From: a virus
Length of the DNA: 31,005 bases
Direction: 5' to 3' (one strand)
IMG/VR virus record: IMGVR_UViG_3300035670_000912
Span: 1 to 31,005 of that record
Part shown: positions 454-23,870 of the stretch, in pieces
Layout of the letters: each line of letters opens with the position of its first letter
Numbering within the stretch: position 1 is the first letter of the stretch
The notes under the pieces: generated by a model
What the model saw: only the letters and a program-made list of their open reading frames with translations
What the model was told of the DNA's origin: nothing
Database searches by the model: none
Made by a program: the position numbers and the translations under genes

Positions 454-2811
454 TCAAGCCATATGCACCAGCTTTTCGCCGGTCAGTTGCTCAAGTAGGC
501 GGATTGCCTTGAGCATGTCCACGTTGATGCGCTTGCCATCGCGCTCTGAGTAGTAAGACCACGCCATCTCCTCCGATGGGCCTTCAGGGATCAGATCGAA
601 GTTATGGGGCGAAAGAGTAGTCACGTTACCCGCCTCATCTCGGACCTTCAACTCGCTGCTGGAGGATACGTCTTCGGCATAAAGCGTGATGCCGTCCGTA
701 ACGTTGCCTGTCGGTGCGGTGCCGTTGACAAGAACAAGGTTGCCCGCAGAGGCTGTGCCAGCCGTTGTCCCGCCGATAAGCAGGTTCCCGCTGCTGTCGA
801 TGCGCACACGCTCCGAACCCGCCGTCTCCACCGTAACAGTGTCAGCAGCAGGGAAGCGGATCGCCGTGTTGGTATCACCGTCGTGGATGATCTTGTCGCC
901 TACATACGCATTGCCAGAAAGGTAAAGGTCTTTGAAGCGGTTAGTTGGGAAGCCAAGGTTGATAGCGTTGTCTCTACCACCAACAGCAGTCATGCTATAC
1001 GGTCCGATGTAATCCGTGCCATCGGTCTGATAAATTAGGCCAACATCAGCGTTACCCATAGTAAGACGCAGGCTAGAGTTACTCCCAATACTCCCCACAA
1101 TGGTGCCGTCTTTAGCAAAGTCTGCAATATCACCATCAGACGTTAAGCGATTTAAGAATAGAGGATCAGTGCCATCTGCAACGAACCATGCTTTACCAGT
1201 TGGTAACAACTGTCCGCCTACAGTAGATGTGCTGCCTGCAGTCTTACCCACAAGCACGTTCCCGCTGCTGTCGATGCGCATACGTTCTGAGCCGCCAGTA
1301 TAATGCAACAAGTTGTTACCAGACGATCCGATGCGCACAGCGGATGTGCTGTTGTTTGAGGTGTCCTTAAAGGCAATAGAAGAGGATGTAACAGCCGTTT
1401 CAAACAAGCCGCTAATACTAAAGCCGCCACTAGCAGTATAGACATGAAGCTTACGGGCGGAGTCAGGACTGCTCGTCCCAATCCCTACGTTCCCGCTGCT
1501 GCCTTCCAAGAAAAAGGCGTTTGGGTCAGTGTCGCTCTCGATGCGGAAGTCAGCATCGTTACCGGCTTCGTTGAACACGGTGCCCGTTGTTGACGTTTCA
1601 AAGCCAACACCCGGAACGCGGAGACATGTGACGCTGCTGTTGCCGAGCGTGATCTCGTTGGTGGCAGTAGCGGCAGAGGCAGCGGCTGTAGCACCGATGA
1701 CGGTGAGGTTGGTGCCCGTGGTGATGGCGCAGCCTGCTCGGAAGCCAAGCGCCGTGTTGTTCATGTCCACGTTGCCGACGGGGTTTTGTGCGCGCAGCGC
1801 GTCGGTGCCAATAGCCACAGACTGATCGCCTTCGACGTTGGCGCAGAGGGCGTTGACGCCCATAGCGGTGTTTAGAGTACCCGTGGTGTTGCAGCGAAGA
1901 GCATCGCAGGCAAATGCGCTGTTAGCACTCGCCGTAGTATTTGAAAGCAACGCACGGAAGCCAAACGCGGTATTAGCGGCACCAGTTGTGTTATCTCGCA
2001 AAGCAGCGCAGCCGGAGGCGGTGTTGTTGCTGCCCGTAGTGTTGCAAAGCAGCGCGTTTACACCAGAGGCTGTGTTGTCAGACCCCGTTTCGTTATCCCG
2101 CATCGCACTAAAGCCGAAGGCAGTATTGTTACACGCAGTAGTGTTTAGCCTCAGGCTACACGCCCCCACAGAAGTGTTCAGCCGACCCGTCGTCGTACAC
2201 AGCGCAGCCTGAAAACCTACGGCTACGTTGTTCATGTCAGCATTGCCGACCGGGTTTTGGTTGCGGAGGGCGCTTTGACCAATCGCTACACTTTGATCGC
2301 CCTCTTGGTTTTCACGAAGGGCTTCACGGCCAATAGCTACGTTAAATGCCCCCGTGGTGTTTGCAACAGCCGCAGACCGCCCAACCGCAGTATTATAGCA
2401 ACCCGTCGTGTTTGAGCAAAGTGCTACGTTTCCAACCGCTACGTTTTCTTCGCCGGTTGTGTTACACAGCATCGCCTGATTACCAACTGCCGTGTTTATG
2501 CTGCCCGTCGTATTTAACCGGAGAGCGCAGGCTCCGATGGCGGTGCTGTTGCATCCCGTCGTAGTACACAGCGCAGCCTGATAGCCCACGGCCACGTTGT
2601 TCGTGCCAACAGGATAGTTCCCGTCCAGCTTGATCGTGCCGTTGACGTTGAGGCTGGTGGCCGCAGTGCTTGCGCCGATGCTCACGCCGTCGATGGTGCC
2701 GCCGTCCACGTTGATCGAGGAGATCGCGGCAGCGCCGTCCACCTTGTCGATGGCGTCGTTGATCTTCGTGCGAACAGAGGCGGCGCTCTCGCCGTTGGCA
2801 AAGGTGGGCAT
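454..2811 (-). CDS. Tail fibre / receptor-binding protein with tandem 17-residue repeats
   Basis: A 785-residue, Gly/Asn/Thr/Ser-rich protein expected to form the trimeric side or terminal fibre. Residues 1-70 form a short N-terminal region. About residues 70-385 are imperfect 17-residue repeats of the form NTAxGxxALxxNTTGxx, the kind of repeat found in phage fibres and trimeric adhesin heads. Residues about 430-740 contain the fibre motifs GNVGIGTSSP, ERMRIDSSGNVLVG and ERVRIDSSGNLLIGG. The C-terminus carries EEMAWSYYSERDGKRINVDM and a short helix. I see no S74 intramolecular chaperone domain. The start has GGAGTGACCG ahead of it. The repeat block is rich in cysteine (LLCNTTG, ALCSNTTG), unusual for a fibre. 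Its third codon positions look less GC-biased than in neighbouring genes, which could mark exchange. Two small genes, upstream and downstream, may assist assembly. Confidence 0.88.
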   Translation of the reverse strand: MPTFANGESAASVRTKINDAIDKVDGAAAISSINVDGGTIDGVSIGASTAATSLNVNGTIKLDGNYPVGTNNVAVGYQAALCTTTGCNSTAIGACALRLNTTGSINTAVGNQAMLCNTTGEENVAVGNVALCSNTTGCYNTAVGRSAAVANTTGAFNVAIGREALRENQEGDQSVAIGQSALRNQNPVGNADMNNVAVGFQAALCTTTGRLNTSVGACSLRLNTTACNNTAFGFSAMRDNETGSDNTASGVNALLCNTTGSNNTASGCAALRDNTTGAANTAFGFRALLSNTTASANSAFACDALRCNTTGTLNTAMGVNALCANVEGDQSVAIGTDALRAQNPVGNVDMNNTALGFRAGCAITTGTNLTVIGATAAASAATATNEITLGNSSVTCLRVPGVGFETSTTGTVFNEAGNDADFRIESDTDPNAFFLEGSSGNVGIGTSSPDSARKLHVYTASGGFSISGLFETAVTSSSIAFKDTSNNSTSAVRIGSSGNNLLHYTGGSERMRIDSSGNVLVGKTAGSTSTVGGQLLPTGKAWFVADGTDPLFLNRLTSDGDIADFAKDGTIVGSIGSNSSLRLTMGNADVGLIYQTDGTDYIGPYSMTAVGGRDNAINLGFPTNRFKDLYLSGNAYVGDKIIHDGDTNTAIRFPAADTVTVETAGSERVRIDSSGNLLIGGTTAGTASAGNLVLVNGTAPTGNVTDGITLYAEDVSSSSELKVRDEAGNVTTLSPHNFDLIPEGPSEEMAWSYYSERDGKRINVDMLKAIRLLEQLTGEKLVHMA
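1690..2600 (-). repeat. Tandem 51-bp (17-residue) repeats in the tail fibre gene
   Basis: The coding region contains about 15-18 tandem imperfect units, consensus NTAxGxxALxxNTTGxx. A higher-order duplication is also visible: the block starting EGDQSVAIG and leading into NPVGN occurs twice, and AALCTTTG followed by an ACxLRLNTT unit also occurs twice. Units have diverged strongly at synonymous positions, so the array is old or has been reshuffled rather than freshly expanded. Edges are approximate. Confidence 0.8.
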
Positions 2812-20820: not shown

Positions 20821-21154
20821 CGGTCATCTCCTGCGTGATCTTGACCGCGCCGCCGTCGGCCCCGGTGATCTCGGTGCGGTTGGTCTCGCGCCAGCCTGCC
20901 TGCGTCTTGAGGAAGAAGATCATGCACGCTGTGTCGCCCTTGCGAGCCTTGTCGATCAGGTTCGATGCAACGGCACCGATCGCCCGAGCCTTGCCTCTTT
21001 TATACCGCAAGGCCGCTTCCTCGTCGCGATCTAAGATCGCGGCTAGGGTTGGGCGGCTGATGCCGAGATAGTCGGCGATCTGGTCTTGCGTGAGATACTG
21101 AGCGAGCGCCTCAAGCTGGACGCGCTCGTCGCTGGTAAGGACGCGGGTTACCAT
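20717..21154 (-). CDS. terS: Terminase small subunit
   Basis: A 145-residue DNA-binding protein. Residues 20-45 form a helix-turn-helix (YLTQDQIADYLGISRPTLAA), followed by DEEAALRYKRGKARAIGAVA, SNLIDKARKGDTACMIFFLK and TQAGWRET. The RGxAxAxxxVAxxLxxxAxxGDxxAxxFxLKxxAGW pattern is the small terminase signature. It should recognise the packaging site and regulate the large subunit. Its ATG shares a base with the Mom-like stop (TAATG). The C-terminal 35 residues overlap the large subunit gene in another frame, an unusually long overlap. Confidence 0.92.
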   Translation of the reverse strand: MVTRVLTSDERVQLEALAQYLTQDQIADYLGISRPTLAAILDRDEEAALRYKRGKARAIGAVASNLIDKARKGDTACMIFFLKTQAGWRETNRTEITGADGGAVKITQEMTDDLRQALDVLAAKIADSDSADQVALPGPAQPDHA

Positions 21155-21852
21155 TATGCGGCCTCTCCTGATGATGGAGCGTGCGGGTCAGTGCTGCCCT
21201 GCCGCTGTGCCGACTGGTCGTCGGTCATCGCCTGCTTCGCACGCTTGGGATATGGCTTCGCGAGCGGAAGTATGCGCGCCCGCATGTCGTCGTCAAGTGG
21301 CATGAGGTAGCGGTGCTTGCCGGGCGTCGTGACAATCTTGCATTCACTTGGGCGCACCGTCTTGCGCTTTGCTCCCTGCTGAATGTTCCAGCCCTTCTCA
21401 CTAACTTGCCTACTGTGTAGTCGCTTGTCGTTGTGCCAGTATTCTTTCCCGCTTGCTGTGTTGCCGACAAAGACCCAGTTGCCAGCCTGATACACGCCGC
21501 CGTGATGACCGTATTGCGGATCGGCGAACGATACGATCAACCTGAGTTCAGGACTATTGCGCCTTAAAAATTGCACCGCGAGCCTGACTATCCTTGACAC
21601 GGGGGCATCATGCTTGCCCAACGCTATGCGGGTCAGCTCGCACCCCTCTGCTTGCGTCAGGCCATAGGGCGACATCAGGTTCGATGATGCTCCGCGCGAG
21701 AAGATGACAACACCGATGAACTTGTCACACTCCCAGACGCCGATCTTAACTAAAGGCGGCACAGGAACGCTCTTGCTGTAGTGCCAATTCTCGCAGGCAT
21801 ACTTGGCCGCCTCGTGAGTGGCCCAATCGATGCGAAGATCAGCCTTGCCCAT
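21154..21852 (-). CDS. mom: Mom-family DNA modification protein
   Basis: A 232-residue member of the phage Mu Mom family, a GNAT-related fold that converts certain adenines in phage DNA to a bulky carbamoylmethyl-type derivative resistant to many restriction enzymes. Key segments are ACENWHYSKSVPVPPLVKIG (H24, Y25), VVIFSRGASSNLMSPYGLTQ, ELTRIALGK (E72), FADPQYGHHGGVYQAGNWVF and a downstream KRKTVRPSECKIVTTPGKHR with HRYLMPLD. The WHYSK, SPYG, CELTR and SFADPxxGHxGxxYQAxNW motifs define the family. The extended C-terminus after about residue 200 (KQAMTDDQSAQRQGS) is likely disordered. It overlaps the ParB-like gene by 14 bases and is coupled to the small terminase, placing modification just before packaging. 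Confidence 0.88.
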   Translation of the reverse strand: MGKADLRIDWATHEAAKYACENWHYSKSVPVPPLVKIGVWECDKFIGVVIFSRGASSNLMSPYGLTQAEGCELTRIALGKHDAPVSRIVRLAVQFLRRNSPELRLIVSFADPQYGHHGGVYQAGNWVFVGNTASGKEYWHNDKRLHSRQVSEKGWNIQQGAKRKTVRPSECKIVTTPGKHRYLMPLDDDMRARILPLAKPYPKRAKQAMTDDQSAQRQGSTDPHAPSSGEAA

Positions 21853-22369
21853 GTTCGCGCAGATCCCACTCTTCGCCGCAGTGCGGGCATTTGACCATCT
21901 TCGGTGCGAGTTCGTCTAGCTTGCCTTGATCGTCTTCGGTGCCAGGCTCGAAGTTGACATCTGACCCGATGCGCGCGATCTCGTCCGGGTCGAAACCGAT
22001 CACGTCTAGGTCGAAGCCCATCTCGCGCAGGTCGTCGAACTCAAGCGCAAGCAACTCGTCATCCCACTCGGCGAGTTCCGCGACCTTGTTCACCGAGAGC
22101 CGGAACGCCTTGACCTGCGCGTCGGTCATGTCGTCGGCGAGGATGACTGGCACCTCGGCAAGGCCCAGCTTCTTCGCCGCCTTGAGGCGCAGATGCCCAT
22201 CGACGACGAGGCCGTCGCTCTTGGCTACAATGGGCACGCGGAAGCCGAACTCGCGAATGGCCGCTGCAACGCGATCCACGGCGTGGTCGTTCTTGCGCGG
22301 GTTGCGGGCGTATTCGATCAGGCGATCGATCGGCCACGTTTCAAACGCTAGGGGGATGGATGCTGACAT
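21839..22369 (-). CDS. ParB-like N-terminal domain protein with C-terminal CxxC
   Basis: A 176-residue protein. Residues 5-100 are the ParB/Srx-like domain: ETWPIDRLIEYARNPRKNDH, VDRVAAAIREFGFRVPIVAK, DGLVVDGHLRLKAAKKLGLA and VILADDMTDAQVKAFRLSVN. The DGHLR box is the conserved nucleotide-binding motif. Unlike chromosomal ParB there is no central HTH. Residues 100-150 form a WDDELLALEFDDLREMGFDL helix region common in phage ParB-like proteins. The C-terminus holds CPHCGEEW (C161, C164), half of a zinc ribbon. Such proteins often neighbour DNA methyltransferases in phages; here the neighbour is Mom. The start has GGAGCCGCCTACG upstream and overlaps the DUF1937 gene by 29 bases. A role in modification or DNA recognition is inference. 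Confidence 0.85.
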   Translation of the reverse strand: MSASIPLAFETWPIDRLIEYARNPRKNDHAVDRVAAAIREFGFRVPIVAKSDGLVVDGHLRLKAAKKLGLAEVPVILADDMTDAQVKAFRLSVNKVAELAEWDDELLALEFDDLREMGFDLDVIGFDPDEIARIGSDVNFEPGTEDDQGKLDELAPKMVKCPHCGEEWDLREHGQG

Positions 22370-22715
22370 CGTAGGCGGCTCCGCGGGGGACGACGTAGAA
22401 GATCGGGATCTTGGCATCGATGCTCCATTGTATCTCGTAGGCTACACCTTGACTATCGCGCCAGCCAGGGAGGCAAAGCACATATAGCATGTCGCACTTC
22501 TTGAGGACAGTGCGGTTCCACTCGAGCCACGCCATCGCGTTGCCGGGGAGATGGTTACGCTGGCCGACCTCGTGCCAGAGGGCGATCGGGGAGATGGGCA
22601 TGATGATGCCCTTGCGCCAGAGCCATGCGGCGAAGTCACCGGCAGCGAGCGCGCGGGCGTCCTGCGTCGTTGTGTCCGGGTGGGAGTAGGGCGATGAGAT
22701 GAAGGCGAGCATCAT
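22341..22715 (-). CDS. DUF1937 protein, nucleoside deoxyribosyltransferase-like
   Basis: A 124-residue protein starting MMLAFISSPYSHPDTTTQDA. It has WLWRKGIIMPISPIALWHEV, then WLEWNRTVLKKCDMLYVLCL and PGWRDSQGVAYEIQWSIDAK. The SPYSHxD start, the CDxLYVLxLPGWxxSxGVxxE motif and overall size fit DUF1937, a branch of the nucleoside 2-deoxyribosyltransferase-like fold. The glutamate of VAYEI aligns with the catalytic Glu of that fold. It lies directly upstream of the ParB-like and Mom genes. A role in base or nucleotide handling for DNA modification is possible but unproven. The first ATG overlaps the previous stop (ATGA); a second ATG follows immediately. Confidence 0.82.
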   Translation of the reverse strand: MMLAFISSPYSHPDTTTQDARALAAGDFAAWLWRKGIIMPISPIALWHEVGQRNHLPGNAMAWLEWNRTVLKKCDMLYVLCLPGWRDSQGVAYEIQWSIDAKIPIFYVVPRGAAYDVSIHPPSV

Positions 22716-23383
22716 TCTTCCCCGAACACATCGCGCATGATCTTGCGTGCGCTCTCTGCCGAGCATCTCGGCTCATACGGCTCGGGCGGCCTCGCTTTGC
22801 TTTCGAGCGAGTGGATCACCGCGTGGCGCGCGCGCGTCATCCGCTCAAGATCCGGCTCAAGGTCCGCCCATGTCGGGAAGAACTTGTGCGATCGCCTGAG
22901 CAGGACATCGTAGAGGATGTCGGCCGGATAGCGTTGCAGCCGAGCGACGTAGGCACCGATGCGAAGCATCTCGGCGAAGTCGTCGTCGTTGCGCTTGGCG
23001 GTGATGACCGACAACTCGGCGAGCCAGCCCTCGATCATCTCCTGCGTCGCCGGCGCCAAGGCCTTCCTGAAGTCGTCGCAGACCTTCTTGATCTGCTCCG
23101 GATCACCGCGGACGGTGGCGCCCCGGAACACGCTCTGGACCGGCAGCGGCCTGCCCTTGTCATCGCGCGGGAAGCGATGCTCATAGATGATGTCCAAGTC
23201 GACGTTGCGCGACGATGCTCGCGAGACTAGTGCCTTTTCGACCTGATAGGGGCTGCGGCTGACCAGCCACTCCACGACCCGCAAATCGCTTTGCGTTACC
23301 AAGCCATGTTCGCCATGCGGCGTTCCAGTCTCTGAAGGAACTCCCGCGCGCGAGATGATAGTCTCGGAATCGATCTGCTTCAT
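22712..23383 (-). CDS. Replication-region protein, possible helicase loader, unknown
   Basis: A 223-residue helical protein starting MKQIDSETIISRAGVPSETG. Middle segments are EQIKKVCDDFRKALAPATQE and MIEGWLAELSVITAKRNDDD, then RLQRYPADILYDVLLRRSHK, FFPTWADLEPDLERMTRARH and AVIHSLESKARPPEPYEPRC. The FFPTWADLEPxL motif occurs in phage proteins encoded just after a lambda O-like initiator, the usual place of a helicase loader. No AAA motifs are present, so a DnaC-like ATPase is excluded. The start is uncertain: AGGAGATCAACC precedes the ATG used here, which forces a 203-base overlap with the initiator gene; a TTG about 31 codons later would shorten the overlap by about 90 bases. Confidence 0.75.
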   Translation of the reverse strand: MKQIDSETIISRAGVPSETGTPHGEHGLVTQSDLRVVEWLVSRSPYQVEKALVSRASSRNVDLDIIYEHRFPRDDKGRPLPVQSVFRGATVRGDPEQIKKVCDDFRKALAPATQEMIEGWLAELSVITAKRNDDDFAEMLRIGAYVARLQRYPADILYDVLLRRSHKFFPTWADLEPDLERMTRARHAVIHSLESKARPPEPYEPRCSAESARKIMRDVFGEE

Positions 23384-23870
23384 GGTTGATCTCCTCATGG
23401 GTGAAGCCGCGCTCCTCTGCGTCGGCGATGTTCTTCTCGGACGGGCACCATTCATCGGGAAGCGACATCGCTCGCGAGGGCTTCCTCTTCTCTGGTTCAT
23501 TTCCTTGGTTAATCATTCCAAGGTTAAGGATAGGAAAATTCTGCCGGGGGGGATCGGAAATATTTTCCGGGGGGATAGGAAATATTTTCCGATCAGGCTC
23601 GACCAGCTTGAGCGTGTAGCCGTTCGATGTCTTGGAGCCGTTCTCGCGCGTTCGATGCGTCACGACGAGCAGGCCGGCCTCGACTAGCGTATCGATCTGC
23701 ATCCTCACGGCGCGGTCGGTCATCTCGCACAACTCGGCGAGGCGCTTGTGGCTGGGGAAGCACTCGCCGGTCTCGCCGTTGTGATGATCGGCGATCCAGT
23801 AGAGGACGATCTTCGCTGCGGGCTTGAGGCCAGTTTGTCGCATGGCAAGCGCGGTCATGTAGTGACTCAT
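23181..23870 (-). CDS. Replication initiator, lambda O-like (HTH plus DnaT-like domain)
   Basis: A 229-residue protein. Residues 1-90 hold a winged helix of the replication initiator type: LKPAAKIVLYWIADHHNGET, CFPSHKRLAELCEMTDRAVR and LVEAGLLVVTHRTRENGSKT. Residues 93-115 are a proline-rich linker (DRKIFPIPPENISDPPRQNF) whose DNA consists of three iterons. Residues 137-195 resemble the DnaT/phage C-terminal module (PDEWCPSEKNIADAEERGFT, RDYHLARGSSFRDWNAAWRT), expected to contact the helicase machinery. The arrangement, with DNA-binding domain, ori-containing linker and protein-binding domain, is the same as in lambda O. It starts at an ATG with AGGTGGCGCC upstream, coupled by ATGA to a tiny upstream frame. 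Confidence 0.88.
   Translation of the reverse strand: MSHYMTALAMRQTGLKPAAKIVLYWIADHHNGETGECFPSHKRLAELCEMTDRAVRMQIDTLVEAGLLVVTHRTRENGSKTSNGYTLKLVEPDRKIFPIPPENISDPPRQNFPILNLGMINQGNEPEKRKPSRAMSLPDEWCPSEKNIADAEERGFTHEEINHEADRFRDYHLARGSSFRDWNAAWRTWLGNAKRFAGRGVAGQPQPLSGRKGTSLASIVAQRRLGHHL
23528..23594. repeat. Three tandem iterons, candidate replication origin
   Basis: Three adjacent 22-23-bp units occupy the initiator's linker-coding DNA. Each starts GGAT; the second and third contain the palindrome GGAAA-TAT-TTTCC, and the first a diverged GGAAAATTCTGCC. Units one and two end in G-runs and the third in CGATC. A CCTTGG/CCAAGG inverted repeat and a doubled GGTTAA lie next to them at about 23501-23528. 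Iterons inside an initiator gene are the organisation of the lambda and lambdoid origins. The repeats are seen directly; origin function is inferred. Confidence 0.78.

Follow-up and report, generated by a model that had tools for sequence, protein, structure and literature searches.

A probable replication origin within a phage initiator gene, with dyad iterons that covary with the DNA-reading helix

In lambda and the Stx phages (933W, P27), iterons and an AT-rich tract occupy the middle part of gene O (PMC7466680), and dimers of lambda O bind inverted repeats (PMC5043065). The staphylococcal plasmid pSK41, of the RepA_N type, carries four Rep boxes inside rep, in the linker-coding region, and the winged helix-turn-helix (wHTH) N-terminus of its initiator resembles DnaD (PMC5703833). 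RepC of the repABC plasmids has its origin within its own gene, where silent mutations abolish replication, and repC is without iterons (PMC3155836). Here we describe a comparable arrangement in a phage sequence of 31,005 nt (IMGVR_UViG_3300035670_000912), which was analysed over its whole length and is called the window below; the features of the locus are collected in Table 1.

Table 1. Features of the initiator locus, in positions of the window
Feature	Position	Strand	Evidence and remarks
Replication initiator gene, 229 aa	23181..23870	-	HTH_36 match, PHROG families, AlphaFold2 model
Winged HTH (HTH_36)	aa 13-68
Disordered linker	aa 93-129
Helical C-terminal domain	aa ~130-197
Recognition helix, codons 51-58	23697..23720	-	Top mutual information of 90 columns; helix 52-64 in model
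Iteron 1 (first in gene order)	23578..23590	.	Dyad GGAAA-TAT-TTTCC, centre 23584; L001 protein identical
Iteron 2	23556..23568	.	Dyad GGAAA-TAT-TTTCC, centre 23562; 22 bp from iteron 1, shifted frame
Iteron 3	23533..23545	.	Degenerate dyad GGAAA-ATT-CTGCC (GGAAAATTCTGCC), centre 23539
Second element, candidate unwinding or helicase-loading region	23494..23527	-	Coding strand TTAACCTTGGAATGATTAACCAAGGAAATGAACC
C-terminal domain, DnaT-like WNAAWRTWLGN	23280..23483	-	PHROG 1408 and 3992; Pfam DnaT E 0.007, below cutoff
Next gene, overlapping initiator 3' end	22712..23383 (extent to 23500)	-	Start codon uncertain; lambda P-equivalent position

The encoded protein matches HTH_36 (PF13730) in Pfam with an E-value of 1.4e-14 (54.1 bits against a family cutoff of 25), as do 18/18 diverse family members. 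Its N-terminus matches PHROG families of replication initiation or O-like proteins (phrog_1032, 270, 391 and 8540), the profile of phrog_391 ('replication initiation O-like') with E 6.3e-18 over residues 1-133; these function labels rest on annotation by similarity, and we know of no description of the target sites of these families. In an AlphaFold2 model built from 18 homologues, the winged helix is confident, the C-terminal helices are fairly confident and the linker has a pLDDT <50, the disordered residues 93-129 corresponding to the DNA stretch that holds the iterons and the AT-rich element. Among solved folds DnaD-N is the closest and Rep-DNA chains score lower, the similarity being moderate; no PDB relative was found by sequence. 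The DnaT-like nature of the C-terminal domain claimed in the original prediction is weak in Pfam and better backed by the phage (PHROG) families. The DnaT-like domain probably contacts the helicase or its loader; in most relatives an unrelated YPRK...TWLNGERW domain stands in its place.

The next gene gave no Pfam or PHROG match, and the Pfam and PHROG scans of flanking genes showed neither a helicase nor a P-type loader. A counterpart of the next gene is present at the equivalent place in L003, and in several relatives this downstream gene seems to share up to about 200 nt with the 3' end of the initiator gene (L003, 3371-4159; L006, 3503-4012). Elsewhere in the window, the minus-strand gene at 21154-21852 strongly matches the Mom DNA-modification family (E 2.6e-41) and adjoins a ParB_N-like gene (21839-22417), and a 785-aa tail-region protein (454-2811, minus strand) is rich in CNTTG..NTA-type repeats and gave no match in Pfam.

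A repeat finder located three units at 23528-23546, 23551-23569 and 23573-23591, spaced by 23 and 22 bp. The dyad core GGAAATATTTTCC occurs in two exact copies (23556-23568 and 23578-23590), and no further copy with up to two mismatches was found in the whole window, where 0.12 matches are expected. The third unit lies 23 bp from the second, which restores the frame of iteron 1. The array is the top three-copy repeat of the whole 31 kb, scoring 37/45 against 32 in the best of 40 dinucleotide shuffles, and at most 34 was reached in 60 protein-preserving synonymous-codon shuffles of the window gene. The runner-up three-copy repeat, at 21978 with a 21-bp period, lies inside the ParB-like gene. 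The original prediction of three tandem units of 22-23 bp is thus confirmed by the repeat finder, the shuffles and the whole-window scan, and their placement in the linker DNA of the initiator gene agrees with the disorder of the encoded residues in the model. A perfect palindrome had also been claimed for the core, which holds for the arms GGAAA/TTTCC, but the 3-base spacer TAT is itself non-palindromic and the third unit is degenerate.

Scans of viral contigs yielded 63 close relatives and then several hundred further loci, partly overlapping, from which a core set of 86 genes remained after removal of redundancy. No cellular relatives came out of a genome scan with a single protein, and an alignment scan found only three in cellular genomes, L145, L146 and L147 (Donghicola, a Rhodobacterales bin and Thalassobacter); since the only cellular relatives found lie there, Rhodobacterales are the likely hosts of this initiator family. 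Isolated relatives include the Rhodobacter capsulatus phages RcKemmy and RcOceanus. The triple array is present in every core linker examined, so that the comparison of linker DNA proposed with the original prediction turned up no core homologue without it. The dyad centres are exactly 22 and 23 bp apart in 76/86 core genes, which places unit 2 in a reading frame different from that of units 1 and 3. Core DNA identity between units 1 and 2 is 83% and the identity of the encoded peptides 10%, which indicates that the repeats are DNA sites and that selection acts on the DNA; the peptides of units 1 and 3 are 68% alike. In the first set of core genes, the array beats every synonymous-codon shuffle in 51/53 and ties with the highest in the other two. 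No triple repeat was found in Salmonella phage SI8, and no significant triple in 22/48 more distant initiators, so that outside the core family in-gene iterons, as judged from these genes, are common but not universal. Two initiators obtained via another query, L382 (repeat GGAAAAATATCC) and L344, have tight three-copy arrays with 22/23 or 23/22 spacing; because they share this spacing, the geometry may reach past the core family.

The repeat sequence varies among homologues, and the three copies within one gene vary together, giving half-site types GGAAA, CGCA, GGCA, TGCA, GTTGC/GTCGC, GTCAA, GTAAA, GTTCG and others. The half-site of each gene was taken as the consensus of its six half-sites and compared with 90 N-terminal protein columns in 75 genes, 11 of the 86 being omitted for weak or uncertain dyad placement or truncation. 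Residues 56, 57, 51 and 53 rank first in mutual information with the half-site, and they sit on the recognition helix of the model or its cap residue. When other variable nucleotides of the gene were used as a control, at most two of the top four columns fell in the helix in 300 draws. Half-site distance correlates with these four residues at a rho of 0.80 versus 0.19 with the remaining N-terminal domain, the partial correlations being 0.80 and 0.085. The four columns were initially picked on the same data, which was addressed by held-out and a-priori tests: columns chosen on half of the genes predict the other half with a mean rho of 0.69, and with the helix fixed beforehand the partial Mantel r is 0.69, a value reached in 0/2000 permutations. 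The best 8-residue window is 50-57, with a median of 0.04 elsewhere. Among 37 sister pairs, the half-sites differ by at least three bases in 4/6 with a differing helix versus 0/31 otherwise. Glu56 occurs with CGCA in 21/21 genes and Arg56 with GGA in 10/11, and Gln56 mostly with GGCA. The DNA-reading helix and the repeat thus appear to change together, almost residue by base, and the distinct initiator/iteron pair guessed in the original prediction extends across the family. A phylogenetic artefact as the cause of the covariation was ruled out by the background-distance, held-out and sister-pair tests.

The DNA of L001, which is of the window type, is 92% identical to that of L004 over codons 1-40, 48-70% over codons 41-115 and 93-97% over codons 116-229. 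The swapped block starts before the recognition helix, spans the helix, the wing and the iterons, and stops at the last iteron, and by these identities the window gene and L004 differ by a natural swap of a specificity cassette. In further pairs the C-termini are 80-95% identical and both helix and half-site differ. A published parallel is the staphylococcal plasmid pPR9, in which an HTH_36 (pfam13730) N-terminus stands on a pSK41-type C-terminus (PMC5703833). One recombination event would exchange target and reader together, since both are part of the same gene, and so keep the pair matched.

An AACC-led element lies 3' of the iterons in every one of the 75 aligned homologues, irrespective of iteron type. 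Its consensus is TAACCTTGKAA, followed 15 bp further by TAACCTTGGAA in nearly all of the 75 genes, and the distance from the third dyad centre to the start of the element is exactly 14 bp in 61/75. Its codons are strongly biased (Gly GGA 100/100 versus 25% elsewhere, Leu CTT 86% versus 18%, Val GTA 92% versus 20%), and since these synonymous sites are frozen, the DNA itself is constrained. Reading of the element by the variable helix seems unlikely, because it is common to all iteron types; its role is likely unwinding or helicase loading. In the window a TTCC[TT/AA]GGTTAA pair (23501-23512 and 23516-23527) is found here, which alone is not unusual given the window composition but is conserved as DNA among the homologues. 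At scales of 30, 50 and 100 bp, DNA stability across the window is lowest in stretches that begin at 23488-23510, so that the proposed check of local melting places the stability minimum at the array and the AACC element. The earlier suggestion that CCTTGG/CCAAGG and GGTTAA form part of the unwinding region gains support from this minimum and from the conservation at the DNA level. GC skew is uninformative for the origin, because genes switch direction near 25 kb and this confounds it.

Several distant initiators with an HTH_36 domain, among them those of Vibrio, Klebsiella, Salmonella and Pseudanabaena phages, also have AACC clusters 3' of their iterons, and the AACC excess over a synonymous null in 48 further genes is significant but patchy (p 5e-4). 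Clusters of three to eight AACC motifs within 60 nt, often with a 12-15 bp period, were observed in the linker DNA of L322, L323, L326, L334, L347, L358, L393, L396 and L398 and of the named phages L403, L406, L407, L410 and L148. Those of distant initiators are possibly a shared unwinding or loading motif.

The array is very probably the replication origin of the phage, embedded in the gene of its own initiator and working through the following steps. Dimers of the N-terminal winged-helix domain would bind the three dyad iterons, and the dyad symmetry and the covariation are consistent with this putative dimer binding. Residues 51, 53, 56 and 57 would read the outer bases of the half-site, about -7 to -3 from the dyad centre. 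Binding to the iterons is proposed to strain the adjacent AT-rich AACCTTGG element, which would then open, and the C-terminal domain, alone or together with the product of the next gene, would recruit the host DnaB helicase.

The same sites might serve as an operator, by which the protein controls transcription of its own gene while replication starts elsewhere. The covariation indicates that the protein reads the sites and is silent on the purpose of the reading, and the absence of another copy of the iteron core from the window fits this reading as well. The sites lie mid-gene, however, and not at a promoter, they border on the least stable DNA in the window and on an AT-rich element conserved as DNA, their layout matches those of ori-lambda and pSK41, and the protein belongs to replication-initiation families in PHROG; an operator is hence judged unlikely. 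The covariation might also reflect nothing but inherited linkage, the linker and the helix travelling together without contact, as they are adjacent in one gene and are swapped as a block. This is very unlikely, since the rest of the N-terminal domain is equally linked and yet predicts the half-site poorly, the signal is located on the recognition helix, and proteins with the same four residues in diverged backgrounds share half-sites (on average 0.58 of 6 positions differ, in 31 pairs). It is extremely improbable that selection for a repeated linker peptide, for protein reasons, produced the repeats as a side effect: the similar peptides of units 1 and 3 would agree with it, but unit 2 is read in another frame, the linker scores above the protein-preserving shuffles and is predicted to be disordered, and this origin of the repeats was rejected by the frame test.

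Each gene of the family carries a DNA-binding protein together with its probable target, and therefore every sequenced phage provides one natural protein-DNA pair. Such pairs supply data on a recognition code of winged helices at the level of residues, the origins of uncultured phages might be predicted from sequence alone, and a change in the specificity of initiator and origin without mismatch would be explained. The odd repeated peptides in the linkers of phage initiators are likely shadows of DNA sites. A broader proposal, which is tentative and somewhat doubtful, is that HTH_36 phage initiators are self-addressed cassettes exchanged between phages, in which a few helix residues set the half-site by a readable code, and that the unvarying AACC-repeat element (12-15 bp period; looser in phages of unrelated hosts and missing in lambda) is a common signal for single-strand capture or helicase loading.

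The locus resembles those of lambda and the Stx phages in having dyad iterons midway along the initiator gene and then an AT-rich tract, and its protein is predicted to resemble lambda O in having a DNA-binding N-terminus, a linker and a partner-binding C-terminus (PMC7466680, PMC5043065, PMC6022878). The lambda-like position of the iterons within the gene, as originally predicted, matches the layout of the annotated lambda record, whose iterons were detected, as a positive control, by a comparable repeat scan. Lambda has four iterons spaced by 20/24/23 bp and the Stx phages have six, whereas the window has three spaced by 22/23 bp and of another sequence, and lambda has no AACC cluster after its iterons, the place where the HTH_36 family has its element. 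Comparison with lambda O gave an hhalign probability of 5% over 15 columns, and no Phage_rep_O match was found in Pfam. The description 'lambda O-like' is thus supported by the layout and the PHROG label but not by detectable homology, and the system is therefore classed as working like lambda O/ori and not as a member of that family. O/ori specificity differs among lambda, phi80 and 82 (titles cited in PMC6022878), so that type-specific pairs are not new in principle. With pSK41 and other RepA_N initiators the locus shares sites in the linker-coding DNA of the initiator gene and a wHTH N-terminus; these are plasmid systems, whereas the window is from a phage. The window initiator shows moderate fold similarity to DnaD-N and Rep-DNA chains, and a RepA_N domain is absent from its Pfam result at E <= 1. 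RepC is likewise an alphaproteobacterial initiator with the origin within its own gene and differs in that repC is without iterons; the RP-C match of the window initiator in Pfam (E 0.0045) is below cutoff. A literature search, for which subscription papers were mostly beyond reach, found no paper describing the helix/half-site code or the AACC element. As far as we can tell, what is new relative to these systems is the size of the natural series, the covariation at the level of residues, the frozen 22/23 geometry, the boundaries of the cassette and the invariant AACC element.
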